A stretch of 49,516 nt of DNA from Candidatus Poribacteria bacterium (GTDB lineage: Bacteria > Poribacteria > WGA-4E > WGA-3G), in NCBI GenBank assembly GCA_028820845.1, contig JAPPII010000073.1, forward strand, positions 1 to 49,516. Direction: 5' to 3'. Below are positions 28,107 through 40,096 of this stretch, in pieces. A model generated the notes under the pieces. That model ran no database searches. It saw nothing but the letters and a program-made list of their open reading frames with translations, and had not been told where the DNA came from. Numbering within the stretch: the stretch's first letter is position 1; each line of letters starts with the position of its first letter. Both the position numbers and the translations under genes were made by a program.

Positions 28107-29480
28107 ATGGCGACTTTAACGCAGACCGAGAACCAGATTAGACCGCTCTATATTGACGGATACACCCACCAACTCAGTTATGCTCCCGGTGACGAGATTG
28201 CGTTCCACATTTCAACGAGTGCGGAGAACTATTCACTTGAGATTGCGCGCATCGGTGCGACGCGCGAGGTTGTCTGGCGTCAAACGGAGCTGCCCGGTGA
28301 AGCGCAACCGATTCCCGAAGATGTTTCATCGCAGGGATGTGGATGGTCCCCTGTTTTTACGCTTGAAGTTCCTGAAACGTGGCAGAGCGGTTATTATGAA
28401 GGCACACTTCGTGCAACGGATGGCGGTGGCGAGGACATTTATAGGAACCGTCGTACGGCTGAGAGTACGCTCTTCTTTATTGTCCGTCCTGCGAAACCGG
28501 GAGCGAACACCTCTATTCTCCTTCAGCTCTCCACCAACACCTACAATGCGTACAACAATTGGGGTGGCTTCAGTCTTTACGGATATCACGGGAAGAGCAA
28601 GATACAAGGCAACCGCGTTTCGTTTGACCGACCGACGCGCGGTATTTTCAGAAATTGGGAATTGCCATTTATTGTCTGGGCGGAGCAGAACGGGTATATC
28701 CTTGATTATGCGGCAAATAGCGATCTGGAGTTCCGCCCTAAGATATTGGAACATTACAGACTCGTGTTGAGTGTCGGGCATGATGAATACTGGTCTGCTC
28801 CGATGCGCGATCACCTTGAGGCGTTTATCGCGAACGGCGGGAACGCTGCCTTCTTCAGCGGGAATTCCGTCTGTTGGCAGGTACGCTCTGAAGACGATGG
28901 CAGAGCCTTGGTCTGTTGGAAGCAAACCTACAATCAGGATCCGGTTTATAAAACCGATGATTACAGTACCCTCAGTACGCTCTGGAGTCACTATCTGGTG
29001 GGTCGTCCTGAAAACGAATTGACGGGTGTCGGTTTCCTTCAAGGCGGTTATCACTTGAGTCACGGGCAGTTTATGGATGGTCCAGGGGAGTACACTGTCC
29101 ATCGTCCGGAGCATTGGGTGTTTGAGGGTACAGACCTCGCGAAAGATGACACTTTCGGTGGGGCGGATACCATCGTTGGCTACGAGTGTGACGGATGTGA
29201 GTGGACGCTTGAAGATGGTCTGCCTGTTCCGACCTATCGCGATGGCACGCCTGATGGTTTCACGATTCTTGCGACGGCTCCTGTACGTTGGCATTCCGAT
29301 GATTGTGAGTGGTACGAACGTTGGGAGAGAGGAAGGACGGGTGCTGCAACGATGGGCATCTATACAAAAGCCGGGACGGTCTTTACGGCTGCCACAACCG
29401 ATTGGTCGCACGGATTGGCAGGTGGCGATGCAGCGGTTGAACAGATTACGCATAACATTCTGCGGCGGCTGGCGCGGTAG
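28107..29480 (+). CDS. N,N-dimethylformamidase large-subunit-like protein
   Basis: A 457-residue protein resembling the C-terminal part of the N,N-dimethylformamidase beta subunit. The N-terminal beta-sandwich (about 10-125) has IDGYTHQLSYAPGDEIAFHIS. The catalytic-type domain has LQLSTNTYNAYNNWGG (about 139-154), LVLSVGHDEYWSAPMRDHLEAFI (about 219-241) and GGNAAFFSGNSVCWQVR (about 243-259), all conserved in that family. DMFase is a mononuclear iron amidohydrolase; whether this shorter homologue cleaves amides is unknown. AAAGGAG stands 7 nt before the ATG. It is divergent from the PhyH gene across 159 bp. No signal peptide. Confidence 0.85.
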   Translation: MATLTQTENQIRPLYIDGYTHQLSYAPGDEIAFHISTSAENYSLEIARIGATREVVWRQTELPGEAQPIPEDVSSQGCGWSPVFTLEVPETWQSGYYEGTLRATDGGGEDIYRNRRTAESTLFFIVRPAKPGANTSILLQLSTNTYNAYNNWGGFSLYGYHGKSKIQGNRVSFDRPTRGIFRNWELPFIVWAEQNGYILDYAANSDLEFRPKILEHYRLVLSVGHDEYWSAPMRDHLEAFIANGGNAAFFSGNSVCWQVRSEDDGRALVCWKQTYNQDPVYKTDDYSTLSTLWSHYLVGRPENELTGVGFLQGGYHLSHGQFMDGPGEYTVHRPEHWVFEGTDLAKDDTFGGADTIVGYECDGCEWTLEDGLPVPTYRDGTPDGFTILATAPVRWHSDDCEWYERWERGRTGAATMGIYTKAGTVFTAATTDWSHGLAGGDAAVEQITHNILRRLAR

Positions 29481-29531: not shown

Positions 29532-29567
29532 TTGCCAATTCTCCGATGGCGTGTTATCCTATTTAAC
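29532..29567 (+). promoter_or_regulatory. Promoter predicting a leaderless mRNA (radical SAM gene)
   Basis: TTGCCA (29532-29537), 17-nt spacer, TATCCT (29555-29560), then exactly 7 nt (ATTTAAC) to the ATG at 29568. No Shine-Dalgarno is present. The spacing places transcription start on the A of the ATG. Confidence 0.6.
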
Positions 29568-30926
29568 ATGAGAAGGGAAACGCTAACCCCCTCAGCGATG
29601 CACGCCCCTGGTGCAGTCCTCTTAATATCCTGCTACGAACTCGGACACCGACCCATTGGGCTAACCCGTCCCCTTCGCGCTCTTGAAGCAGCGGGGTTTG
29701 TTCCTGATGTGATTGACATTGCTGTGGAACCGTTGGACCTTGAAAAGGTTGCGCGTGCACGTTTCATCGGGATCTCTGTGCCGATGCATACGGCACTGCG
29801 ACTCGGCGTTCATCTCTTGCCCCGTATCCGAGAAGTCAATCCAGATGTCATTATCTGCATGTACGGACTTTACGCTAAACTCAATGCAGACTACCTGCTT
29901 TCGCACGGCGTGGATTTTTGTATCCGTGGTGAAGCATCAACACAACTTATTGCGCTGATGCAATCTTTTGTTGATGGGAAAGGGACTGAAACACAGGAAG
30001 TCGGTTTCCCGATTGCGGAACTGCCGTCCCTGGAGATGTACGCGCAATTTGAAAATAACGGCGAGGTGCGAACGGTCGGGTATACAGAAACAACGCACGG
30101 ATGCAAGCATCTCTGCACACACTGCCCGATACCTCCGGTTTATGAAGGTAGGTTTTTTGCTGTACAACGCGACACGGTGCTCGCTGAGATACGCGAACAG
30201 GTGGTAGAAGGGGCTGCGCATATTACATTCGGGGACCCGGATTTTCTCAACGGTCCGACGCACGGACTCCGCATTCTCCGCGCAATACACGAAGCTTTTC
30301 CGAGTCTTACCTTCGATTTTACAACCAAGATTGAACACATTCTGAAAAATAGAGCACTGTTTCCAGAATTCGCACAACTTGGATGCCGGTTTATTATCTC
30401 TGCTGTGGAATCGCTTAGCGAACAGGTGTTGACAATTTTGGAGAAGCAGCATACACGCGCCGATGTAGCGGAAGCGATTGACATCGTTCACGGAGCCGGG
30501 ATCGCGCTACGTCCGACATGGGTGCCGTTCACGCCGTGGACTGCCTTAGACGACTATCTTGAAATCCTCCAATTTGTTGATACGCACCGTCTTGTTTATC
30601 ACGTGGACCCGGTACAGTATGCCGTTCGGTTGCTAATTCCACCAGGTTCATATCTACTCAACCGTTCCGAGACGCAAAAACTTTCACTCGAACTTGATGA
30701 AGCCGCCTTCAGTTACGTGTGGGCACACCCGGATCCGCGAATGGATGAGCTTCATAAGACTGTCAATGCCCTCGTTGAAAACGACGCGCGCGCCGGTGTA
30801 GATGCCCTTGACACCTTTTATCGGATATGGACACTCGCTGCCGATATGCAGGGTAGTCGGGACGTTCCGTCGTGCCATAATCAGCATCAATCCGCGCCTC
30901 GGATCACTGAAGCGTGGTTCTGCTGA
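29568..30926 (+). CDS. B12-binding domain radical SAM protein
   Basis: A 452-residue cobalamin-dependent-type radical SAM enzyme. The N-terminal Rossmann-like domain (about 15-140), with LISCYELGHRPIGL and FIGISVPMHTALRLG, matches a B12-binding fold, although the DxHxxG motif is not evident. The cluster motif CKHLCTHC (C179, C183, C186) binds the 4Fe-4S cluster. FGDPDFLNG follows as the SAM-contacting strand. The reaction is unknown; such proteins do methylations and rearrangements. A TTG at 29532 is in frame but coincides with the -35 box of a promoter whose -10 ends 7 nt before the ATG at 29568, so translation probably begins at the first base of the mRNA. A DUF169 gene follows after 65 bp. 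Confidence 0.88.
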   Translation: MRRETLTPSAMHAPGAVLLISCYELGHRPIGLTRPLRALEAAGFVPDVIDIAVEPLDLEKVARARFIGISVPMHTALRLGVHLLPRIREVNPDVIICMYGLYAKLNADYLLSHGVDFCIRGEASTQLIALMQSFVDGKGTETQEVGFPIAELPSLEMYAQFENNGEVRTVGYTETTHGCKHLCTHCPIPPVYEGRFFAVQRDTVLAEIREQVVEGAAHITFGDPDFLNGPTHGLRILRAIHEAFPSLTFDFTTKIEHILKNRALFPEFAQLGCRFIISAVESLSEQVLTILEKQHTRADVAEAIDIVHGAGIALRPTWVPFTPWTALDDYLEILQFVDTHRLVYHVDPVQYAVRLLIPPGSYLLNRSETQKLSLELDEAAFSYVWAHPDPRMDELHKTVNALVENDARAGVDALDTFYRIWTLAADMQGSRDVPSCHNQHQSAPRITEAWFC

Positions 30927-30991
30927 GCAGAACCCACCGAAGGGCAGTTTGCTCCGATTCACATTTAGCATTCATCTTATAAAGGAAAAAA

Positions 30992-31678
30992 ATGTCAGAT
31001 CAAATCCAGCAGCTCCTCAATTTGGAAACTGCGCCTGTTGCGATAACATTCCACGAAACACGCCCTGATAATGTTCCACAAACCGAGAAAGTTGAAGCCT
31101 CCGGCTGCACCTATTGGCGACGCGCCGCAGAAGGCAGAACCTTCTATACCGAAGCATCCGACCACTACAATTGTCCAATCGGATGTTATACCCACAACGT
31201 TGAACTCCCACCCACACAAGCCGAAGAACTTCAAAACACCCTCGGACTGATGGGCGAACTCGGCTACATTTCTATGGAGGAGGTCCCCGGTATTCCGCGA
31301 CGCGAAGACCCTTTCCAGAGTGCGGTCTATGCCCCGTTAGCAGATGCATCTGGCACACCGGATGTCGTTATTATCTCTGGGACACCGAGACAGATGATGC
31401 TCTTAGCGGAAGCCGCGACTGCTGCGGGTATCGGCACTGAAAACGGGGTCATGGGCAGACCGACCTGTGCTGTGATTCCTGCTGTGCTACAATCGGGTCG
31501 AGGTGCAAGTAGTTTAGGGTGTATCGGCAACCGCGTCTATACCGCACTTTCTGACGATGATTTCTACTTCGCTTTTCCGGGCAAATACATTGATGTACTC
31601 GTTGAGAAATTGGAGACGATTGTGAATGCGAATCAGGCGTTAGAGGAATATCATCAACAACGCCAAGCGGATTTTTAA
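30992..31678 (+). CDS. DUF169 family protein
   Basis: A 228-residue soluble protein of the DUF169 family, function unknown. Family features include the start LLNLETAPVAITFHE, a SGCTYWRRAAEG segment (Cys near 38), DHYNCPIGCYTHNVELP (Cys near 57 and 61) and a C-terminal GASSLGCIGNR (Cys near 176). The conserved cysteines suggest metal or cofactor binding. AAAGGA lies 6 nt before the ATG. It follows a B12-type radical SAM gene on the same strand, and co-transcription would make a cofactor-related role plausible, but this is inference. Confidence 0.9.
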   Translation: MSDQIQQLLNLETAPVAITFHETRPDNVPQTEKVEASGCTYWRRAAEGRTFYTEASDHYNCPIGCYTHNVELPPTQAEELQNTLGLMGELGYISMEEVPGIPRREDPFQSAVYAPLADASGTPDVVIISGTPRQMMLLAEAATAAGIGTENGVMGRPTCAVIPAVLQSGRGASSLGCIGNRVYTALSDDDFYFAFPGKYIDVLVEKLETIVNANQALEEYHQQRQADF

Positions 31679-31780
31679 ACTTACCTTGCGGTGAAATGAC
31701 GTGGACTGGGTATTGAACAGTTTCTGCCAAAGAGTTGAAGAAACATCCAAGCAAAAACCCTTCCACTTCGTTTCAGGCTT
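31679..31780. repeat. Dispersed ~100-bp repeat, family B (full copy)
   Basis: Fills most of the gap between the DUF169 and SDR genes. Its start (ACTTACCTTGCGGTG) and end (TTCCACTTCGTTTCAGGC) match the copy at 23316-23395. Its second half, 31740-31777, matches the inverse of 41651-41687 at about 32 of 38 positions. Confidence 0.75.
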
Positions 31781-31818
31781 AGATTTTGTTGCTAATTTAA
31801 TGCGGGGATACGAACGTC

Positions 31819-32622
31819 ATGCAAGATGTTGCTGTTATTACGGGTGCAGCGAGCGGCATTGGGAGAGGATTGGCGGAACGGTTTGCTGCGGAAGGTATGA
31901 AAGTCGTTCTCGCCGATGTTGAGACGGAACCGTTAGCCGAACTTGCGTCGGATTTAAGGACTAAAGGTGCGACGGTTCTCACTGTCAAAACGGATGTCTC
32001 AAATCCCGATGATGTCGAAAATCTTGCTGTGCAGACACTGGACACTTTCGGTGCGGTGCATATCCTTTGCAACAATGCGGGTGTTGTCTGTAGCCGTCCT
32101 GTCTGGGAGCATACGCTCGCCGACTGGGAATGGGTGTTGGGCGTTAACCTATGGGGCGTAATTCACGGCATCCGGTCGTTTGTGCCGCGCATGCTTGAAC
32201 AAGGGGACGAGTGTCATATTGTGAACACTGCCTCTATCTTGGGTTTGGTGGGAGGCAGTGGCGAAGGCATCTACAAGGTGAGTAAACACGGGGTCGTCGT
32301 ACTTTCGGAGACCCTTGCTGATGAGTTGGCACAGGAAGGCGCGAATATTCAAGTACATGTGTTGTGTCCCGGATGGGTTCGCACAGGGATTTTGGAATCT
32401 GCTCGGAACCGACCGGACACATTGCAAAATCCAGTGGAGAAATCGCGTGATATAGTGATCGGCGGTTCCCGGAATACCCGCGCCGAGATGGAGGCAGGAC
32501 TGTCTCCTACAGAGGTGGCGGAACATGTCTATAATGCTATACAGAACGGCGCGTTCTATATTCACACGCATCCTGAACACAAGGCATGGATTCGTGAGCG
32601 GATGGCGCGTATTCTTAAATAG
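31819..32622 (+). CDS. Short-chain dehydrogenase/reductase
   Basis: A 267-residue SDR. The cofactor motif ITGAASGIGRG is at about 7-17, NNAG near 90, the catalytic Ser in NTASILG near 139 and YKVSK near 154-158 as the Tyr/Lys pair. The Asp at the end of beta-2 (VVLADVETE) suggests preference for NAD over NADP. Substrate unknown; a sugar-derived or xenobiotic alcohol is typical. Only a weak GGGGA precedes the ATG. It converges with the Zn-alcohol dehydrogenase, the stop codons being 6 bp apart. The two could act on related substrates. Confidence 0.93.
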   Translation: MQDVAVITGAASGIGRGLAERFAAEGMKVVLADVETEPLAELASDLRTKGATVLTVKTDVSNPDDVENLAVQTLDTFGAVHILCNNAGVVCSRPVWEHTLADWEWVLGVNLWGVIHGIRSFVPRMLEQGDECHIVNTASILGLVGGSGEGIYKVSKHGVVVLSETLADELAQEGANIQVHVLCPGWVRTGILESARNRPDTLQNPVEKSRDIVIGGSRNTRAEMEAGLSPTEVAEHVYNAIQNGAFYIHTHPEHKAWIRERMARILK

Positions 32623-32628
32623 TCTCTA

Positions 32629-33711
32629 TTAAGTCAAATCTAGCACACTCCGTGCGACTTCGCCTCTTGCTAATGCCTCGAATGCATCATTTATTCCTTC
32701 CAACGGATACGTCCGCGTGACGAGTTCGTCCAGTTTGAGTTGTCCTCCCTTATAGAGCGAAACCAAACGCGGGAAATCTACATGTGGGCGCGCGGTCCCG
32801 TACATCGAACCGATGACCATTTTTTCGGGCATCAGCATCCGTGCGTCAAATTCAACAGGCGTGTTCTCTGGTGCGTGTCCGACGAAGACCGTCACGCCTC
32901 TACTCCGCGTACAGAGGATCGCTTGCCGGAAGGTTTCGCCAATTAGACCGATTGCCTCAAATGCATAGTGGACCCCGCGCCCATCGGTAATCTCTTTAAT
33001 CTGTGCTACGGGGTCTACTTCAGCGGCATTAACGGTATGCGTAGCACCGAACTGTCTGCCGAGTTCGAGTTTGTTATCTAACACATCGACAGCGATTATT
33101 GGTTCGCCACCAGAGAGCGCAGCACCTTGTATGCAATTGAGTCCGACCCCACCGCATCCAAAAACGGCTACCGAGCTGCCTGGGGTAACTTGTGCGGTGT
33201 TGATGGCCGCGCCGACCCCTGTCATCACGCCACATCCAATTAACGCGGCTTGTGCGAATGGCATATCTTTATCAATAGGAACCACAGCGTCTTGGGGGAC
33301 GAGTGTCTCGGTACCGAAGGTTCCGAGTCCAGACATCTGGTCGATTTCACGTCCACTTGTTTTGATAGCGGGTTTGCCTGAACCGTCAGCGGGGAGCGCG
33401 CATAGGTTCGGATACCCTTTCTGGCACATCTCACAAAATCCACAGTTCCGTTTCCATGAGAGAATCACATGGTCGCCGACCTGCACTTGGGTTACATCGT
33501 TTCCGATCTCTTCTACGATGCCAGCCCCTTCGTGTCCGAGAATGACGGGTAACTTGACGAAAGGCCACTCGCCCTTAACGACGTGCCAATCGGAATGACA
33601 GACACCACTGGCGACCAATCGCACTCGGACTTGGTTTGCACTCGGACGCGGTAAGTCGAATTCTTCAATTTTTAGATGCGTGTCGGTTTCATATAGGACT
33701 GCAGCTTTCAT
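32629..33711 (-). CDS. Zinc-dependent alcohol dehydrogenase
   Basis: A 360-residue medium-chain dehydrogenase of the class III-like/NDMA-type group. Catalytic zinc: C38 (GVCHSDWH), H60-E61 (GHEGAG) and the Cys in LIGCGVMTG. Structural zinc: C90, C93, C96 and C104 (CGFCEMCQKGYPNLC). The NAD site is VAVFGCGGVGLN near 183. It oxidises primary alcohols or hydroxymethyl adducts; exact substrate unknown. GGAGGG is 5 nt before the ATG. A perfect palindrome, AAATTCCC-TGTA-GGGAATTT, sits just upstream of the Shine-Dalgarno (33724-33743) and could be an operator or hairpin. The gene follows the YjjX-like gene on the same strand after 40 bp. Confidence 0.94.
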   Translation of the reverse strand: MKAAVLYETDTHLKIEEFDLPRPSANQVRVRLVASGVCHSDWHVVKGEWPFVKLPVILGHEGAGIVEEIGNDVTQVQVGDHVILSWKRNCGFCEMCQKGYPNLCALPADGSGKPAIKTSGREIDQMSGLGTFGTETLVPQDAVVPIDKDMPFAQAALIGCGVMTGVGAAINTAQVTPGSSVAVFGCGGVGLNCIQGAALSGGEPIIAVDVLDNKLELGRQFGATHTVNAAEVDPVAQIKEITDGRGVHYAFEAIGLIGETFRQAILCTRSRGVTVFVGHAPENTPVEFDARMLMPEKMVIGSMYGTARPHVDFPRLVSLYKGGQLKLDELVTRTYPLEGINDAFEALARGEVARSVLDLT

Positions 33712-33723
33712 GAGGTCCCTCCG

Positions 33724-33743
33724 AAATTCCCTGTAGGGAATTT
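33724..33743 (-). promoter_or_regulatory. Palindrome upstream of the alcohol dehydrogenase gene
   Basis: AAATTCCC-TGTA-GGGAATTT, a perfect 8-bp inverted repeat ending 12 bp before the ATG at 33711 and within a 40-bp intergenic gap. It could be a regulator-binding site or an mRNA hairpin next to the Shine-Dalgarno. Confidence 0.5.
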
Positions 33744-33751
33744 ATGTTATG

Positions 33752-34303
33752 CTACTTTAACGAAAAATAGAGATCTTCTTGAAGGAAAGGGATTAAGGCA
33801 AACGTTATCGCTTGTGTGTAATTTTGCAATCTGTTTATCGCCCCGTTTGTTAATAATCCGCTGGCACTTTGTTTCTCCTTTGTGTTGGACTCTTGAGCGA
33901 GTTCGTCAATGATGTATGCTAATTCGGTACCTGTTAGGAGTTTCTCGACTATCCAGTTGGGCAATTCATACATACCGGTTGTGCCGAAACTTTCTCGGTG
34001 TTGTTGATCCAATATGTAGATGGCAGTGAATTGGAAGTATCTGTTATGGAGTTGAAGAACTCCGCCCTCGATACCAACAAAGAAATTAGCATTGAGGTAT
34101 TGTTCATCGTTGATACGCTTTACCTGTTCAGCTCGGTTCTTGGCACCTGTGAATGTATCTTCGTTAAAGGGTTGGGGGGAAACGCCGGAGTCAGCGGATA
34201 ATCCATGAACTTCTACGGGTTTAAAAAATTGTGAGAAGCTTTGCCGTGTGCTCTCAATTTTTACGCTATTTTCTGAACCGATTAAAACTTTAGTGGGTGT
34301 CAT
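33752..34303 (-). CDS. Inosine/xanthosine triphosphatase-like protein (YjjX/DUF84)
   Basis: A 183-residue house-cleaning NTPase of the YjjX/DUF84 family, which hydrolyses non-canonical purine triphosphates such as ITP and XTP. Family features: VLIGSENSVKIESTRQSF at the N-terminus (phosphate binding), SGVSPQPFNEDTFTGAKNRA near 39-58, and FVGIEGGV near 75-82, with the acidic metal ligands. The C-terminal SASGLLTNGAINR is also conserved. An ATG at 34312 is in frame, but it is part of a perfect TATAAT box; the ATG at 34303 lies exactly 7 nt after that box, so the mRNA is predicted to start at the codon itself (no SD). Confidence 0.9.
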   Translation of the reverse strand: MTPTKVLIGSENSVKIESTRQSFSQFFKPVEVHGLSADSGVSPQPFNEDTFTGAKNRAEQVKRINDEQYLNANFFVGIEGGVLQLHNRYFQFTAIYILDQQHRESFGTTGMYELPNWIVEKLLTGTELAYIIDELAQESNTKEKQSASGLLTNGAINRLQNYTQAITFALIPFLQEDLYFSLK

Positions 34304-34338
34304 GGTTGTCATTATATCACTTTTGGAAAAAGATTCAA
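34304..34338 (-). promoter_or_regulatory. Promoter predicting a leaderless mRNA (YjjX-like gene)
   Basis: On the minus strand TTGAAT (34333-34338), 16-nt spacer, perfect TATAAT (34311-34316), 7 nt (GACAACC), ATG at 34303. No Shine-Dalgarno. Confidence 0.65.
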
Positions 34339-34386
34339 GGTTGATTTTGGCGGCGTTGCAAGCTAAAGCTCGCTATAGAAATAGGA

Positions 34387-34416
34387 TTGACTTCTGACAC
34401 TCAGAAAGGATATAAT
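34387..34416 (+). promoter_or_regulatory. Sigma70-type promoter of the small lipoprotein gene
   Basis: TTGACT (34387-34392), 18-nt spacer, perfect TATAAT (34411-34416). Leader of about 60 nt containing a GAGGAG Shine-Dalgarno. Confidence 0.75.
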
Positions 34417-34483
34417 AGATGAAACAGACTGCTATGGGAAGCCTGCAAGCTGCCCCTAAGAGGCATAAAAGAGGAGAATAGGT

Positions 34484-34984
34484 GTGTTTCGCTTGAATTT
34501 GAAATTGCGGAGTGTTGTGCTCGTTGGGATCTGTGTTCTTTTTATTTTTGCATGTGGGAGTGGTGTGATCCAGAATTTTGAGGGGATTGAACTTCAATCG
34601 GATCCGCGCGTTGACAGGATCGACTTACGGATTTATTTGGTGGATAGAAATGGCACGCCGCTTATATGGAACCAGAGCATTCTCAGTCCGAGTGTTGGGG
34701 TAAGTACGATTTCTGAAGCCGATTTTACCACCAATGCTAAAGTCTACTCCATCCGTAATGGTGCAAAGCATCGAAAAGTCTACGATGGCAGACTAATTGA
34801 CCTTCGTTGGTCACAGGAACTCCATAGACTGGATCGGCTCTTAACGGCGGAGATCCCACGCGTCTTCATTGAGGAGGATCCGGAACGCGATACCCATTTA
34901 GGGGTCATAGTGGTTGAAATCGAGACTGAGAAACAGGGTCCGTTCACGGATACCTTAGAGAGAACTGCTATCTATAAGTATTGA
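34484..34984 (+). CDS. Small lipoprotein of unknown function
   Basis: A 166-residue lipoprotein starting at GTG, with GAGGAG 7 nt upstream. The signal (LKLRSVVLVGICVLFIFAC) puts the lipidated Cys at 24. The mature domain, with DRIDLRIYLVDRNGTPLIWNQ near 43-63 and HLGVIVVEIETEK near the end, looks like a compact beta-sandwich; the family is unknown to me. It has its own strong promoter (34387-34416). A heptamer-repeat gap separates it from the ABC permease gene downstream, so co-transcription is uncertain. Confidence 0.85.
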   Translation: MFRLNLKLRSVVLVGICVLFIFACGSGVIQNFEGIELQSDPRVDRIDLRIYLVDRNGTPLIWNQSILSPSVGVSTISEADFTTNAKVYSIRNGAKHRKVYDGRLIDLRWSQELHRLDRLLTAEIPRVFIEEDPERDTHLGVIVVEIETEKQGPFTDTLERTAIYKY

Positions 34985-35198
34985 ACTGGCTGTCAGCCGT
35001 CAGCGGTCAGCAGTCAGGGGAATGGTTTCTACCAACAGTCAACAGTCAGCAAGAGACTGGGATGGAAGAGGGGAAGGGTGGAAGAAGGGACTCAACCTTA
35101 CGGTTTCCTTGCAGCCTTCCAGCCAAACGCCGATGGCTGAAAGCCGATAGCCAATTCAAACGAAAACTTCTTAAACGACAACTGAAAACGAAAAAAAT
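34985..35198. repeat. Intergenic gap with two heptamer-phased arrays
   Basis: 34992-35019 reads GTCAGCC, GTCAGCG, GTCAGCA, GTCAGGG; 35122-35156 reads GCCAAAC, GCCGATG, GCTGAAA, GCCGATA, GCCAATT. ACAGTCA also repeats at 35035-35048. No gene, promoter or terminator is evident in these 214 bases. Confidence 0.85.
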
Positions 35199-36062
35199 AT
35201 GCCTATTCACACACAGAACTACCGACATTGGGAAGGCACGCTGAAAACCCAAAGTCATACGCGGTGGTGGATTATTGCGAAGGCAGAGTTGAAACTGCTT
35301 GCACAGCGCAAAATCGTCCGATTGATTGTCGCTGTTCCACCCTTAATGTACATCTTTGCCCACGCAGTACTGATCTATATCATTAATCAGGTCCCGGGTG
35401 TAGAGTTCGCGTTTATTAAGGTTGATAGCGAATTTTTCCAAAAATTTCTGTTCCGAATCTATCCATTTCCATCGACATTTATCGTCGCCTTGGTTGCTGT
35501 TTTCGGAGGTTCGGGATTAATTGCTACGGATCTGAAAAACAACACGCTGTCCCTTTATCTGTCTAAACCGATTTCGTGGATAGATTACTTAATTGGTAAG
35601 TTTGCTGCTATTGGTATCTTATTGGCTTGCCTGACGTTGGTCCCTGGGTTGTTATTATTTCTTGAACAGTCGCTATTAGCGGGCACGGCTTTTCTGAAAG
35701 ATAACTACTGGGTTCCTTTTTCAATCATCGCCTATTCCGTAATTATTATCCTGTCTACGGGGCTGTTAATACTCGTGTTTTCATCGCTGACGACAAATGC
35801 GCGTTATGCCATCATCGGTTTCTCCGCCGTGTGGTTTGGCTCAATTGTCCTTTATGAAGTTCTTAAAGAGATGGCACGCACCAGCAAAGTGGCTTTGGTC
35901 TCGATTTGGGCGAACTACGACATTCTCGGCACAGCCCTATTTGGCGGTTCACCGGATTATAGCGTACATTGGATTTGGTCACTCTTTATCCAAATCGCGC
36001 TGATAGTTTTCTACCTTTTCGTGCTTCGTCGTCGGATTCGTGCCGTTGAAGTGGTCAAATAG
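35199..36062 (+). CDS. ABC-2 type transporter permease
   Basis: A 287-residue inner-membrane protein with six predicted helices at about 45-66, 91-112, 130-152, 170-192, 199-220 and 255-276, and a charged C-terminus, RRRIRAVEVVK. The architecture is that of ABC-2/NatB-like permeases, which pair with an ATPase encoded elsewhere. No ATPase gene adjoins, so the partner is missing from the window. The N-terminal HTQNYRHWEGTL precedes the first helix. No Shine-Dalgarno is visible before the ATG at 35199, which follows an A-rich tract; the start is therefore moderately sure. Transported substrate unknown. Confidence 0.85.
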   Translation: MPIHTQNYRHWEGTLKTQSHTRWWIIAKAELKLLAQRKIVRLIVAVPPLMYIFAHAVLIYIINQVPGVEFAFIKVDSEFFQKFLFRIYPFPSTFIVALVAVFGGSGLIATDLKNNTLSLYLSKPISWIDYLIGKFAAIGILLACLTLVPGLLLFLEQSLLAGTAFLKDNYWVPFSIIAYSVIIILSTGLLILVFSSLTTNARYAIIGFSAVWFGSIVLYEVLKEMARTSKVALVSIWANYDILGTALFGGSPDYSVHWIWSLFIQIALIVFYLFVLRRRIRAVEVVK

Positions 36063-36082
36063 TTGTTGGTTTTTGGTTAGAT
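36062..36082. repeat. Short heptamer array
   Basis: GTTGTTG, GTTTTTG, GTTAGAT directly after the permease stop codon. Member of the heptamer-phased class. Confidence 0.5.
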
Positions 36083-36106
36083 GAGGGTGGTTCATAGAGG
36101 TAGCGT

Positions 36107-36132
36107 CCGCAAACTGACAGTTTGCGGTACAA
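36107..36132. repeat. REP-like palindrome with TACAA tail
   Basis: CCGCAAACT-GAC-AGTTTGCGG followed by TACAA; perfect 9-bp stem. It lies between the convergent permease and amidohydrolase genes and could form a hairpin at the end of both transcripts. Same design as 14346. Confidence 0.88.
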
Positions 36133-36157
36133 ATCAGTTAAATATCGTTCCTGCCCA

Positions 36158-37018
36158 TTAGCGAAGTCGCGCGCCATTTGCATCCCACATTTCAGTATCT
36201 GAATATGCCTGAGGCGGTTTTATGGGAGTTAGTGTCGGTGTCCAATCGGCACGAAATTGCTGGACCAACCGAACTGCGTTCTGATAAGCCACTCTCTCCT
36301 TTGTTTCATCATCGAGTTGTGCTGACTCAATTTGTGCTTGTACCAACCGGAAATCGTAATAGGGTAGATCGCTGCCGAACATGATTCTATCGTTCCCAAG
36401 ATTGTTGATGAGATGTACCAGATCCCAACTTGCGTCTGCACCTTCTGGTTTCTGTGCTACGTCGAACCAGATGTTCTCAGACTTAGCGCACTGTGCTATT
36501 GCATCAAGGTGTCCGGCTTTGTTCATGGAGACGTGTCCAATAATAAACGTTACCGATGGGAATCGCTTTGCGTAAGCGGCGATGTTCTGGGTGGAACCTG
36601 CCTGATGGAGCAGGCACAGCCCGTTGTGCATTGCCACGACTTCAAGGAATCCGTGGAGCTCACCGCTGAGTGAATGTCCCGACAACCCTGGATGACACAT
36701 AAAACCGACTAAATCGTCGTCCCGTATCGCTCGTTCTAATTCGTCAACGCCGGCTTGTTCGTGTCGGACTTCCGCGATTCCGAGTCCAATCGGAAAGCGT
36801 TCAGGATATAATTTACATGCGTTGGCGATTGTTTCGTGTTGTGTACGTGTGTCCAATACACCGCGTGCTTGGGGGCTGCCGGCTGTTGGACATGGAATCG
36901 CGCCGATAACACCCGCTGATGCCATCCGCGCCAGACATTTTCCAGTGCTTTGCCCAACGACTGGGGCACGCGATACCGTCATACCGATATGGCAATGTAC
37001 GTCAAAATAGGGACGCAT
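36158..37018 (-). CDS. Amidohydrolase family (TIM-barrel metal-dependent hydrolase)
   Basis: A 286-residue enzyme of the amidohydrolase-2 type, related to decarboxylases and lactone hydrolases. It begins with FDVHCHIGMT (HxH metal ligands at about 8-10). VTFIIGHVSMNKAGHLD (about 154) gives the third His, and MFGSDLPYYD (about 217) the metal-ligating Asp. These four sites complete the active site. AAAGGA lies 7 nt before the ATG. It is preceded by two direct copies of a palindromic repeat. It probably hydrolyses or decarboxylates a small carboxylic substrate in the catabolic network. Confidence 0.92.
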   Translation of the reverse strand: MRPYFDVHCHIGMTVSRAPVVGQSTGKCLARMASAGVIGAIPCPTAGSPQARGVLDTRTQHETIANACKLYPERFPIGLGIAEVRHEQAGVDELERAIRDDDLVGFMCHPGLSGHSLSGELHGFLEVVAMHNGLCLLHQAGSTQNIAAYAKRFPSVTFIIGHVSMNKAGHLDAIAQCAKSENIWFDVAQKPEGADASWDLVHLINNLGNDRIMFGSDLPYYDFRLVQAQIESAQLDDETKERVAYQNAVRLVQQFRADWTPTLTPIKPPQAYSDTEMWDANGARLR

Positions 37019-37056
37019 GGATTTTTCCTTTCCATTTTCTTGAGACTCTGTAATGA

Positions 37057-37128
37057 CACAAACTAACAGTTTGTGCTACAAGGGACGGTTATATTCAAAA
37101 TGACACAAACTAACAGTTTGTGCTACAA
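37057..37128. repeat. Two tandem copies of the REP-like palindrome
   Basis: CACAAACT-AAC-AGTTTGTG-CTACAA occurs at 37057-37081 and again at 37104-37128, offset 47 bases, sharing about 30 identical bases each. Together with 14346 and 36107 they define a dispersed family; here the stem carries compensatory G-C to A-T changes. Confidence 0.92.
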
Positions 37129-37150
37129 CGGCCAGGTTGCTCTTGAACCG

Positions 37151-37918
37151 TTAGAATTCGGGGACAGGCGTGTAGGTATTAAACCCATCTGTCTTGTCTT
37201 CGCCTTGTAGCAAGTAGATATAGTGTTTGCGCCGCCACTCTGCGCCGGGATAACGGACGTTTGCTGGCATGTAGCGCATGGTGTAACCGCACCGACGTTT
37301 TTGTGAGGCGTTGGGACTGGAATTGTGGATGGTCCATGCGTCGTGAAAATGACACTCACCAACTTCTAACTCCAGATTAACCACTTTCGACGTATCTAAA
37401 TCGGCTTCCACGACTTCGGTCCCGAAGAGATTATTTGTGCGATCGACCTCTTCATAGCGGCGGTCCCGTAATCTGTGGCTGCCGGGTATGACGCGCATGC
37501 ATCCATTTTCAACTGTCGATTCATCGACGGCTAACCACATCGTGATAACGTGCATCGGTTCAAGGGACTTGCCCCAATAAACGCCGTCTTGATGCCATGG
37601 GACTGCCATACCGTCGTGTTCCCGTTTGCTGATAAAGTGGCTCGACCAGAGGACGATATCTGGTCCGATAAACCGTTCGATGACCTTCAGCACACGGGAG
37701 TGTGTCAGGTATTTGAACAGAAATGGATGTTCAAAATGCGGTACGTCCATCTGTTCCGGACGTCTTCCTTCCGGCAAATTTTCGATCATATCGTCCACAT
37801 AATCTCGGAGTGTGTCTAATTCTTCTTTTGTGAAGATACGTCCGAATGTGAGATAACCGTTGTCTTTGTAAAATTCGACTTGTTCATCGGAGACGGTCGT
37901 TTCTAGTTTCCAATCCAT
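37151..37918 (-). CDS. Phytanoyl-CoA dioxygenase family protein (PhyH)
   Basis: A 255-residue Fe(II)/2-oxoglutarate oxygenase. H109 and D111 (VPWHQDGVYWG) and H198 (TIHNSSPNAS) form the iron triad; R208/R209 supplies the 2-oxoglutarate salt bridge. Conserved GCMRVIPGSH (about 139-148) is typical of the family. The start at 37918 has AGGTGA 4 nt upstream. It is one of three such enzymes here, each with little identity to the others outside the motifs, so they likely serve different substrates. The LamG gene lies upstream on the same strand (90-bp gap). Confidence 0.93.
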   Translation of the reverse strand: MDWKLETTVSDEQVEFYKDNGYLTFGRIFTKEELDTLRDYVDDMIENLPEGRRPEQMDVPHFEHPFLFKYLTHSRVLKVIERFIGPDIVLWSSHFISKREHDGMAVPWHQDGVYWGKSLEPMHVITMWLAVDESTVENGCMRVIPGSHRLRDRRYEEVDRTNNLFGTEVVEADLDTSKVVNLELEVGECHFHDAWTIHNSSPNASQKRRCGYTMRYMPANVRYPGAEWRRKHYIYLLQGEDKTDGFNTYTPVPEF

Positions 37919-38008
37919 GTGTCACCTATTTTTCTATTTTAACCCATTGTTGAAGAGCAGACCTCGTTAGCGAGGGTATCGTTTATAATACAACCGTAAG
38001 GTAGCAGT

Positions 38009-38848
38009 TTACCTCGTCTTTATTTTTCCCCAGGCGGTAGCTAATTTGTTATTTGGCGAGACAGCTTCCGCACCTAATGCCCGTGCGAGGCCTGCTTCGG
38101 CAATTTCCGTGAGTTGATCTTCTGTCAAGACGACGTTGAACAGTGCGACTTCATCTATTATGCCATCTGCAAGGGTTCGAGAAGGGACACCAACTTCACC
38201 ACCAAGTGTGAGAGGTTTTTGGTTATCCTCATTCTGTTTTTGGTGTGCCGAGATGTCTATTTCAACCTCGAATTTTCCATCTCGATACAATTTCATCGCG
38301 CCTTTCCGATCGGCAGTTGCGGCAAGATGATGCCACTTTCCGTCGTTGATAGGGGATATACCGAAGAGGTGAACACCTGCGCCTTGCGCTAATCCAAACC
38401 AAAACAAGGGTTTCCCTTTATTATTCGGATCGAGGTCTCCGCGGATTCCCAAGAGATAGCCGTGTCTCGGCATGGCGAAATCGGCTTTTTGGATAAGGAC
38501 CGTGTGCCAATTGGGTGAGGTTTTGGAATACTTGAACCATGCCATTATAGAGTAGTTCTCTGTTCCGACGTTTAGGAGTGGTGAAGTGCCAGCGTTAACT
38601 AAGCTGCCGTTCTCGAATTCCAGCCCACCACCAAATTCACCTTCAGCCCATTCTACACCGTTTCCGAGCTCCACATCAAGCGCGTTTTCCGACAAGTCTT
38701 TGGCGAGGTCGCCTTTCTTTTCATCAAAGAGCCAAACTGCTATAGCAGTTGCCGGATCGACGGCGGCGAATCCGTGTGTGGTGAACATTAGTATCAGAAC
38801 ACTTATGACACTCCAGCGAATGCCTAATTTAGTATAGATGTCTCTCAT
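38009..38848 (-). CDS. Secreted LamG/concanavalin-like domain protein
   Basis: A 279-residue exported protein: signal peptide about 1-28 (IRWSVISVLILMFTTHGFAA). The mature part is a LamG-like jelly roll (about 32-240): WLFDEKKGDLAKDLSENAL, GLEFENGSLVNAG, YSIMAWFKYSK, GKWHHLAATADRKGAMKLYRDGK and GIIDEVALFNVVLTEDQL are its usual landmarks. Such domains bind glycans or proteins outside the cell. A C-terminal tail, NNKLATAWGKIKTR, follows. GGAGGT is 8 nt before the ATG at 38848; the in-frame GTG at 38854 is too close to it. Divergent from glycerate kinase across 108 bp. Confidence 0.9.
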   Translation of the reverse strand: MRDIYTKLGIRWSVISVLILMFTTHGFAAVDPATAIAVWLFDEKKGDLAKDLSENALDVELGNGVEWAEGEFGGGLEFENGSLVNAGTSPLLNVGTENYSIMAWFKYSKTSPNWHTVLIQKADFAMPRHGYLLGIRGDLDPNNKGKPLFWFGLAQGAGVHLFGISPINDGKWHHLAATADRKGAMKLYRDGKFEVEIDISAHQKQNEDNQKPLTLGGEVGVPSRTLADGIIDEVALFNVVLTEDQLTEIAEAGLARALGAEAVSPNNKLATAWGKIKTR

Positions 38849-38920
38849 TTCCACTTACCTCCGATACTATGATTTTGGCATAAATTTGCATTGGGTGTCA
38901 AGCAATTTTTCGGTAGGAAC

Positions 38921-38956
38921 TTGACAAGTTGTGAGGCTTGTGATAAATTATCCGTC
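38921..38956 (+). promoter_or_regulatory. Promoter predicting a leaderless mRNA (glycerate kinase gene)
   Basis: A perfect TTGACA (38921-38926), 17-nt spacer, TAAATT (38944-38949), then 7 nt (ATCCGTC) to the ATG at 38957. No Shine-Dalgarno, and the in-frame TTG at 38891 lies upstream of the promoter. Confidence 0.7.
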
Positions 38957-40096
38957 ATGAAAATTGTAGTTGCACCTGATTCATTTAAAGGGAGTGTCAG
39001 TGCTCTTGAAGCTGCGCGTGCGATTGAGCAAGGGATCCGTCGCGTATTTCCAGAGGCTGTTATTGAAAAAGTGCCGATGGCGGATGGCGGCGAAGGGACT
39101 GTGCAATCCCTCGTTGATGCAACGGGTGGTCACATTCAAACGCGTCGTGTGCTTGCGCCACTCGGAAACGAGGTCGAGGCGAAATTTGGTATCCTTGCAG
39201 ATGGGAAGACGGCTGTTATTGAGATGGCATCCGCCTCCGGTCTCACGCTTGTTAATCCGCAGGAACGGGATCCGCTTCGCACGACTACTTATGGTACCGG
39301 GCAACTTATCCACGCTGCTTTAGAAGCGGGGTGCAGACGTTTGATTATCGGTATTGGTGGTAGCGCGACGAACGATGGTGGGGTCGGAATGGCGGAGGCA
39401 CTTGGTGTCTGCTCGCTGGATGCAGATGGGAAACAGATTCCACGCGGCGGTGGGAGCCTCGGGCAATTGCGGTCAATAGATATAACGGGTTTACATCCGG
39501 CTATTGCTGAAACCGAGACGGTTGTTGCTTGCGATGTGAACAACCCATTGACGGGTCCAGAGGGTGCTTCACACGTCTATGGACCACAGAAAGGTGCCAC
39601 CCCTGAAATGATTGAAACCTTAGATGAATGTCTCGGACATTTTGACAAGGTTTTAACCGAGACGCTTGGGATATCCTTTAATAACATCCCCGGTGCAGGT
39701 GCTGCTGGTGGGTTGGGTGCGGGGCTCATGGCGTTTCTCAACGCGGAATTGAAACTCGGCGTTGATATTATGATTGATGCCGTTAAACTCGAAAAACGCA
39801 TGGAAGGTGCTTCTCTCGTTTTTACAGGTGAGGGGCAATTGGACTTTCAGACGGCGTTTGGTAAAACGCCTGTTGGGGTCGCAAAGGTAGCGAAAGCACA
39901 CAATATCCCCGTCATTGCAATTGCTGGCGGCATTGCTGAGGGTGCTGAAGCCGTTTACGAAGCCGGTATTGATGCGATGTTGGGCATCGTCCAAGAACCG
40001 ATGTCTCTTGAGGTTGCTGTTGAAGATGCGACACGGTTAATCGCTGACACGGCGGAGCAAGCGGCACGATTGATCGCTATCGGTCTTGGTAAATAG
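38957..40096 (+). CDS. Glycerate kinase
   Basis: A 379-residue kinase of the GlxK/GarK family that phosphorylates D-glycerate to 2- or 3-phosphoglycerate, linking sugar-acid and glyoxylate catabolism to glycolysis. Family motifs are the start KIVVAPDSFKGSVSA, VPMADGGEGTV (about 41-51), GIGGSATNDGG (about 134-144) and NIPGAGAAGGLGAG (about 239-252), and VFTGEGQLDFQT (about 290). The preferred ATG at 38957 follows a promoter whose -10 ends 7 nt upstream, so a leaderless transcript is predicted. It converges with the sulfatase gene across an 8-bp-stem hairpin. It would receive the glycerate released by sugar-acid breakdown. Confidence 0.95.
   Translation: MKIVVAPDSFKGSVSALEAARAIEQGIRRVFPEAVIEKVPMADGGEGTVQSLVDATGGHIQTRRVLAPLGNEVEAKFGILADGKTAVIEMASASGLTLVNPQERDPLRTTTYGTGQLIHAALEAGCRRLIIGIGGSATNDGGVGMAEALGVCSLDADGKQIPRGGGSLGQLRSIDITGLHPAIAETETVVACDVNNPLTGPEGASHVYGPQKGATPEMIETLDECLGHFDKVLTETLGISFNNIPGAGAAGGLGAGLMAFLNAELKLGVDIMIDAVKLEKRMEGASLVFTGEGQLDFQTAFGKTPVGVAKVAKAHNIPVIAIAGGIAEGAEAVYEAGIDAMLGIVQEPMSLEVAVEDATRLIADTAEQAARLIAIGLGK

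Follow-up and report, generated by a model that had tools for sequence, protein, structure and literature searches.

Housekeeping-type promoters set on start codons point to a minority leaderless mode of initiation in Candidatus Poribacteria

Three genes with a promoter directly before the start codon

The window, that is, the whole stretch of DNA analyzed here, is the complete contig C73 (49,516 bases, 48% GC) of the 5.69-Mb assembly of a Candidatus Poribacteria MAG. Poribacteria are uncultured and mostly sponge-associated. The window encompasses three genes of particular concern here, which encode a probable B12-binding radical SAM selenoprotein, a yjjX-like inosine/xanthosine triphosphatase and a glycerate kinase (glk) (Table 1). 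The glycerate kinase is up to 99% identical to proteins from MAGs designated ‘Candidatus Poribacteria’. Upstream of glk, on the opposite strand, positions 38009-38854 (-) encode a concanavalin A-like lectin (Laminin_G_3) protein that adjoins a PhyH dioxygenase and an amidohydrolase.

Direct reading of the DNA upstream of the three start codons (ATG at 29568, at 34303 on the minus strand, and at 38957) bears out the architecture that the first-pass annotation described, namely, a -35 box starting with TTG, a spacer of 17 nt (radical SAM and glk) or 16 nt (yjjX-like), a -10 hexamer, and exactly 7 nt to the ATG in all three cases. The same holds for the lack of a Shine-Dalgarno (SD) sequence, none being found upstream of the three starts, and it is fair to say, as that annotation did, that most other genes in the window have one, given that SD-like motifs precede 23-24 of the 39 listed starts (the higher count includes the start at 2902, where the GGAGG falls slightly beyond the span searched for the motif). 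What the annotation overlooked is that the -10 element is extended in all three genes, with TG located one base before the hexamer. The promoters of the radical SAM gene and glk score 11 and 12, respectively, in the genome scan described below; the yjjX-like gene, which was missed by the gene finder used for that scan, was scored by hand under the same scheme and reaches 12. Three such genes in one window is more than the genome average of roughly 1.5%.

The radical SAM gene lies 88 nt behind a same-strand gene that ends at 29480. We rejected the ATG at 29598 as an alternative start of the radical SAM frame. This codon is replaced by ACG or ATA in two relatives, which keep the upstream frame free of indels, and their lack of the downstream ATG supports 29568 as the start.

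Table 1 Coordinates of the three genes and of their start-codon promoters in the window
Feature	Coordinates	Strand	Remarks
Radical SAM -35 box TTGCCA	29532..29537	+	TTGC[CAT]A-like box in 11/11 genus orthologues
Radical SAM extended -10 TGtTATCCT	29552..29560	+	TGn-TATnCT kept in genus
Radical SAM 7-nt gap ATTTAAC	29561..29567	+	7 nt in 9/11 orthologues; final base C/T in 11/11
B12-binding radical SAM selenoprotein gene (probable), CUAEP-tail family NF040546	29568..30968	+	ATG 29568; TAG stop 30966-30968
Inosine/xanthosine triphosphatase (DUF84/NTPase_I-T, TIGR00258), yjjX-like	33752..34303	-	
yjjX-like 7-nt gap GACAACC	34304..34310	-	7 nt in 11/11; final base C/T in 11/11
yjjX-like extended -10 TGaTATAAT	34311..34319 (hexamer 34316-34311)	-	TGnTATAAT invariant, 11/11 orthologues
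yjjX-like -35 box TTGAAT	34333..34338 (34338-34333)	-	Position kept in genus, mostly TTG[AT]AT
glk -35 box TTGACA	38921..38926	+	TTGACA in genus sequences shown
glk extended -10 TGaTAAATT	38941..38949 (hexamer 38944-38949)	+	TGnTA[AG]AnT kept in genus
glk 7-nt gap ATCCGTC	38950..38956	+	7 nt in 27/28; final base C/T in 28/28
Glycerate kinase gene (TIGR00045, PF02595)	38957..40096	+	N-terminus MKIVVAPDSFKGS fixes ATG

Phylogenetic footprints in the genus

Orthologues were collected from up to 30 relatives and from named MAGs, yielding genus alignments of 28 sequences for glk and 11 each for the yjjX-like and radical SAM genes. The upstream DNA differs among members of the genus, apart from the -35 box, the TGn, the -10 hexamer and the distances between them, which are kept. 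The mean information content in the flank, the -35 box and the -10 box is, respectively, 0.16, 1.81 and 1.45 bits per column for glk, 0.59, 1.58 and 2.00 for yjjX, and 0.35, 1.39 and 1.24 for the radical SAM gene. The gap between the -10 hexamer and the ATG is 7 nt in 47 of the 50 sequences, the exceptions being one glk with 6 nt and two radical SAM orthologues with 6 and 9 nt.

A pyrimidine, C or T, immediately precedes the ATG in all 50 sequences, although the other bases of the gap vary; C and T alternate within every family, and a purine never appears. Genome-wide, C or T precedes 50% of the called starts. These counts come from related sequences and do not represent independent events. 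Since bacterial RNA polymerase usually prefers a pyrimidine at -1 followed by a purine at +1, the constant C/T before the ATG suggests the A of this codon as +1.

Promoters and start codons across the genome

About 2 Mb of the genome was scanned, with 1,162 genes from a purpose-written coding-potential caller that picked some wrong starts. By its mean upstream profile, with A/G enrichment around -10, this is an SD genome, and an SD motif is found at 56% of the called ATG starts in the scanned DNA. The strict consensus TTGACA-N16-18-TGnTAnnnT, sought without regard to the three genes, has 82 matches in the 2 Mb, 75 of which are noncoding, against 26% noncoding DNA; genome-wide, the consensus followed by a downstream ATG occurs 39 times compared to once for a reversed-pattern control. 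This sequence is a true promoter in this genome.

The first-pass annotation had proposed a genome-wide histogram of the distances between -10 boxes and start codons; run on the same 2 Mb, it has a peak at 6-8 nt for the full promoter. Using a composite score (-10 match, plus 2 for TG, plus -35 match) with a threshold of at least 10, in-frame ATGs yield 4 matches in total at gaps 0-5, then 9, 9 and 3 at gaps 6, 7 and 8, 11 in total at gaps 9-14, and 70 at gaps 15-39. Because matches are few at 0-5 and 9-14 and number 70 at 15-39, the 6-8 island is separate from ordinary promoters. The 21 matches at gaps 6-8 (among 1385 in-frame ATGs) compare with 2.4 +/- 1.6 in dinucleotide shuffles and about 4 expected from the neighbouring gaps; at a threshold of at least 11, there are 14 of 1385 versus 0.3 in the shuffles. 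Out-of-frame ATGs have a much flatter gap profile but also match at gaps 6-8 (18 of 2177 at scores of at least 10), so that background accounts for some of the genome-wide signal. The excess at gaps 6-8 amounts to 17-19 of the 1,162 genes, that is, approximately 1.5-2%, a lower bound given that promoters with a weak consensus are missed by the scan.

The signal requires the full promoter: TAnnnT alone gives no peak at the called starts. Counting every ATG up to 30 nt downstream of a promoter over the whole genome is uninformative by itself, because the profile is flat over gaps 0-9 and most of these ATGs open no long frame. A called gene start lies within 400 nt of 54 strict promoters; of these promoters, only that of glk is at gap 7, one lies at -10 and the rest are 25-394 nt away. 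In a 250-kb control from a D. deserti plasmid, the known TAnnnT peak at gap 6 is weakly seen (6 versus 1 expected), this control and an E. coli one of the same size being too small for rates.

Additional candidates

Four candidates were picked from the genome-wide list before their relatives were viewed, namely, an MFS transporter, the hrpB helicase, tgt and an AstE-like gene; the sequences of relatives were compared for hrpB. Among the 12 genus members in which hrpB has the motif, 11 share the arrangement TTGATA-17-TATAAT-7-ATG and the twelfth has a gap of 10 nt. Given this and the other exceptions, the distance between the -10 box and the ATG is not absolute. A C or T precedes the ATG in 12 of 12 hrpB sequences, which, combined with the three genes of the window, makes 62 of 62. 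In one further relative (L314, hrpB of G001), the promoter and the ATG are both lost, with GTC at the start position and unrelated upstream DNA, a change that could possibly represent an insertion or decay.

No regulon is apparent among the candidates of the genome-wide list, whose functions are unrelated (FGE-sulfatase, AAA, HD domain, type ISP restriction-modification, ABC transporter, tgt). Among the genes with such starts are paralogues sharing the motif MPxLNLKPNHKAIRDYY (L010:4459-7515 (-), L057 and L210), in which the start lies 6 nt after an extended -10 element and which, judging from this arrangement, look leaderless; the L010 paralogue belongs to the type ISP restriction-modification enzymes.

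Changes of initiation mode between families

Outside the genus, glk is preceded by other arrangements. In two families of the same order (f4 and f2), an SD-like cGGAG or cGGAAG is found instead of the start-codon promoter. In a third family (f3; L161 and L162), 16 nt separate the promoter TTGACA-TGTTATGAT from the downstream ATG, leaving a short leader without an SD, an intermediate between the leaderless and leadered states. A divergent yjjX (55% identity) in G010 (L134) is preceded by TTGGAGGTGATT-GTG, an SD. Given these arrangements of glk and yjjX, the initiation mode is gene- and clade-specific. Mode changes between orthologues have been inferred for other bacteria by Zheng et al. 2011 (PMC3160421).

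One could go further and regard the initiation mode in Poribacteria as an evolvable, gene-specific trait, with glk being leaderless, SD-led or short-leadered depending on the clade and the leaderless set possibly co-regulated and translated differently under certain conditions; as a whole, we consider this extended reading unlikely.

Interpretation and alternatives

Extended -10 promoters of the housekeeping type that are set on the start codon would, with a probability that we put at about 0.87, make these genes leaderless, or leaderless within 1-2 nt, as a minority mode beside the dominant SD-led initiation. Under the proposed mechanism, RNA polymerase would recognize a promoter consisting of TTGnnn, a 16-17-nt spacer ending in TGn, and TAnnnT, and would start at, or within 1-2 bases of, the A of the ATG. 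The resulting mRNA would carry no SD and would be translated as a leaderless message, with the ribosome recognizing the 5′-terminal AUG together with the initiator tRNA, and individual genes would gain or lose this mode between families of the order. What we infer here is that +1 falls precisely on the A of the ATG and that initiation is leaderless.

The reading closest to this one accepts the promoters as real but has transcription begin one to a few bases off the A, so that the mRNAs would have 1-3-nt leaders or begin inside the codon and would thus be near-leaderless. A 6-nt discriminator would place the start on the base before the ATG, and gaps of 6, 9 and 10 nt do occur in single relatives. 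Against this stands the C or T found at that position without exception across all four gene families, a base at which transcription starts poorly and which usually occupies -1 when the start is a purine, and we regard a displaced start as rather doubtful. It is less probable still that most of the protein comes from longer upstream or read-through transcripts via SD-independent initiation. The location of the radical SAM gene behind a same-strand neighbour would fit such transcripts, but the glk DNA beyond the -35 box is not conserved (the 0.16 bits of the flank), and no further conserved element is seen in the 60 upstream nt examined. Almost no weight attaches to the idea that AT-rich upstream DNA resembles promoters by chance, or that something other than transcription constrains it: a loose -10 box is indeed frequent and TAnnnT alone has no peak at the called starts, but the footprints recur in about 11-28 relatives per gene and the full promoter is far above the shuffles. 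The preserved -35 box, -10 box and spacing have largely refuted this explanation already.

How widespread the mode is can be weighed separately. The first-pass annotation had suggested that leaderless initiation is a regular mode in this lineage, comparable to Actinobacteria and Deinococcus-Thermus. That the genes are leaderless or nearly so is strongly supported by the genus footprints, but the ‘regular mode’ does not hold up against a share of approximately 1.5-2% of genes, and the comparison fails also at the level of promoters, with 1 of the 54 strict ones at gap 7. General and abundant leaderless initiation, as in Actinobacteria or Deinococcus, would agree with the clear genome-wide peak at 6-8 nt; nevertheless, the excess of 17-19 genes, even as a lower bound, the prevalence of SD motifs at called starts and the single strict promoter (glk) at a start codon make it very improbable. 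A lineage with abundant leaderless genes would have them at 20% of genes or more, compared to approximately 1.5-2% with recognizable promoters here.

Relationship to known leaderless systems

Leaderless genes have been reported in 207 of 953 bacterial genomes, all from listed groups, with a fraction of about 20% in Actinobacteria and about 40% in Deinococcus-Thermus (Zheng et al. 2011, PMC3160421). The Poribacteria genes resemble the TA-led genes of that study, in which TAnnnT lies about 12 bp before the start codon without an SD, SD-led and TA-led genes coexist, and orthologues switch between the two. All three genes of the window share four sequence features of this class: the -10 box ends 7 nt from the start, inside the 5-9 nt expected, there is no SD, the position is kept in orthologues, and the genome-wide signal peaks above chance. 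Unlike the TA-led genes, however, they come from a phylum that is not in the listed groups, they make up approximately 1.5-2% of genes as opposed to 20-46%, and their promoters carry a full -35 box and an extended -10 element (PMC3160421). In Deinococcus, experiments have tested a -10 box located 6-7 bp before the ORF as the promoter of leaderless mRNA, an arrangement reported for about a third of the genes of D. radiodurans (Zhong et al. 2025, PMC12340547). The -10 box directly before the ORF is shared with Deinococcus-Thermus, whereas the Poribacteria cases are few, have a clear -35 box and TGn, and are predicted from sequence (PMC12340547). The promoter itself (TTGACA, 16-18 nt, TGnTATAAT) is like a housekeeping extended -10 promoter of the sigma-70 type, and is unusual only in sitting directly on the start codon.

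Going by titles and abstracts, literature searches brought up no relevant work on leaderless genes or SD sequences in Poribacteria. The phenomenon is known, and the lineage and the phylogenetic footprints appear to be new. The general picture of translation initiation is unchanged; the results, backed by phylogenetic footprints, add a phylum of uncultured sponge symbionts to those with leaderless initiation, provide a promoter consensus for the lineage, and offer in glk an example of a leaderless/SD-led switch inside one order. They also show that, given many relatives, RNA data are not needed to detect a rare initiation mode.

The radical SAM gene as a probable selenoprotein gene

The frame of the radical SAM gene contains an in-frame TGA at 30924-30926, beyond which the gene extends to 30968. 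A literature search pairing Poribacteria with ‘selenoprotein’ found no paper. The protein scores 612 bits against NF040546, ‘CUAEP/CCAEP-tail radical SAM (seleno)protein’, above the curated cut-off of 500, and, with its CU/CCAEP tail, belongs to this family. The tail reads FC-TGA-AEPTEGQFAPIHI-stop (30918-30968, +), and C-TGA-AEP is present in all orthologues seen in the order. From these sequence features, the gene very probably encodes a selenoprotein in which the TGA at 30924-30926 is read as selenocysteine. The same genome encodes a tRNA-Sec (C124:110357-110446, 78 bits), and a SECIS-like hairpin overlaps the TGA (-13.9 kcal/mol, z -1.8).
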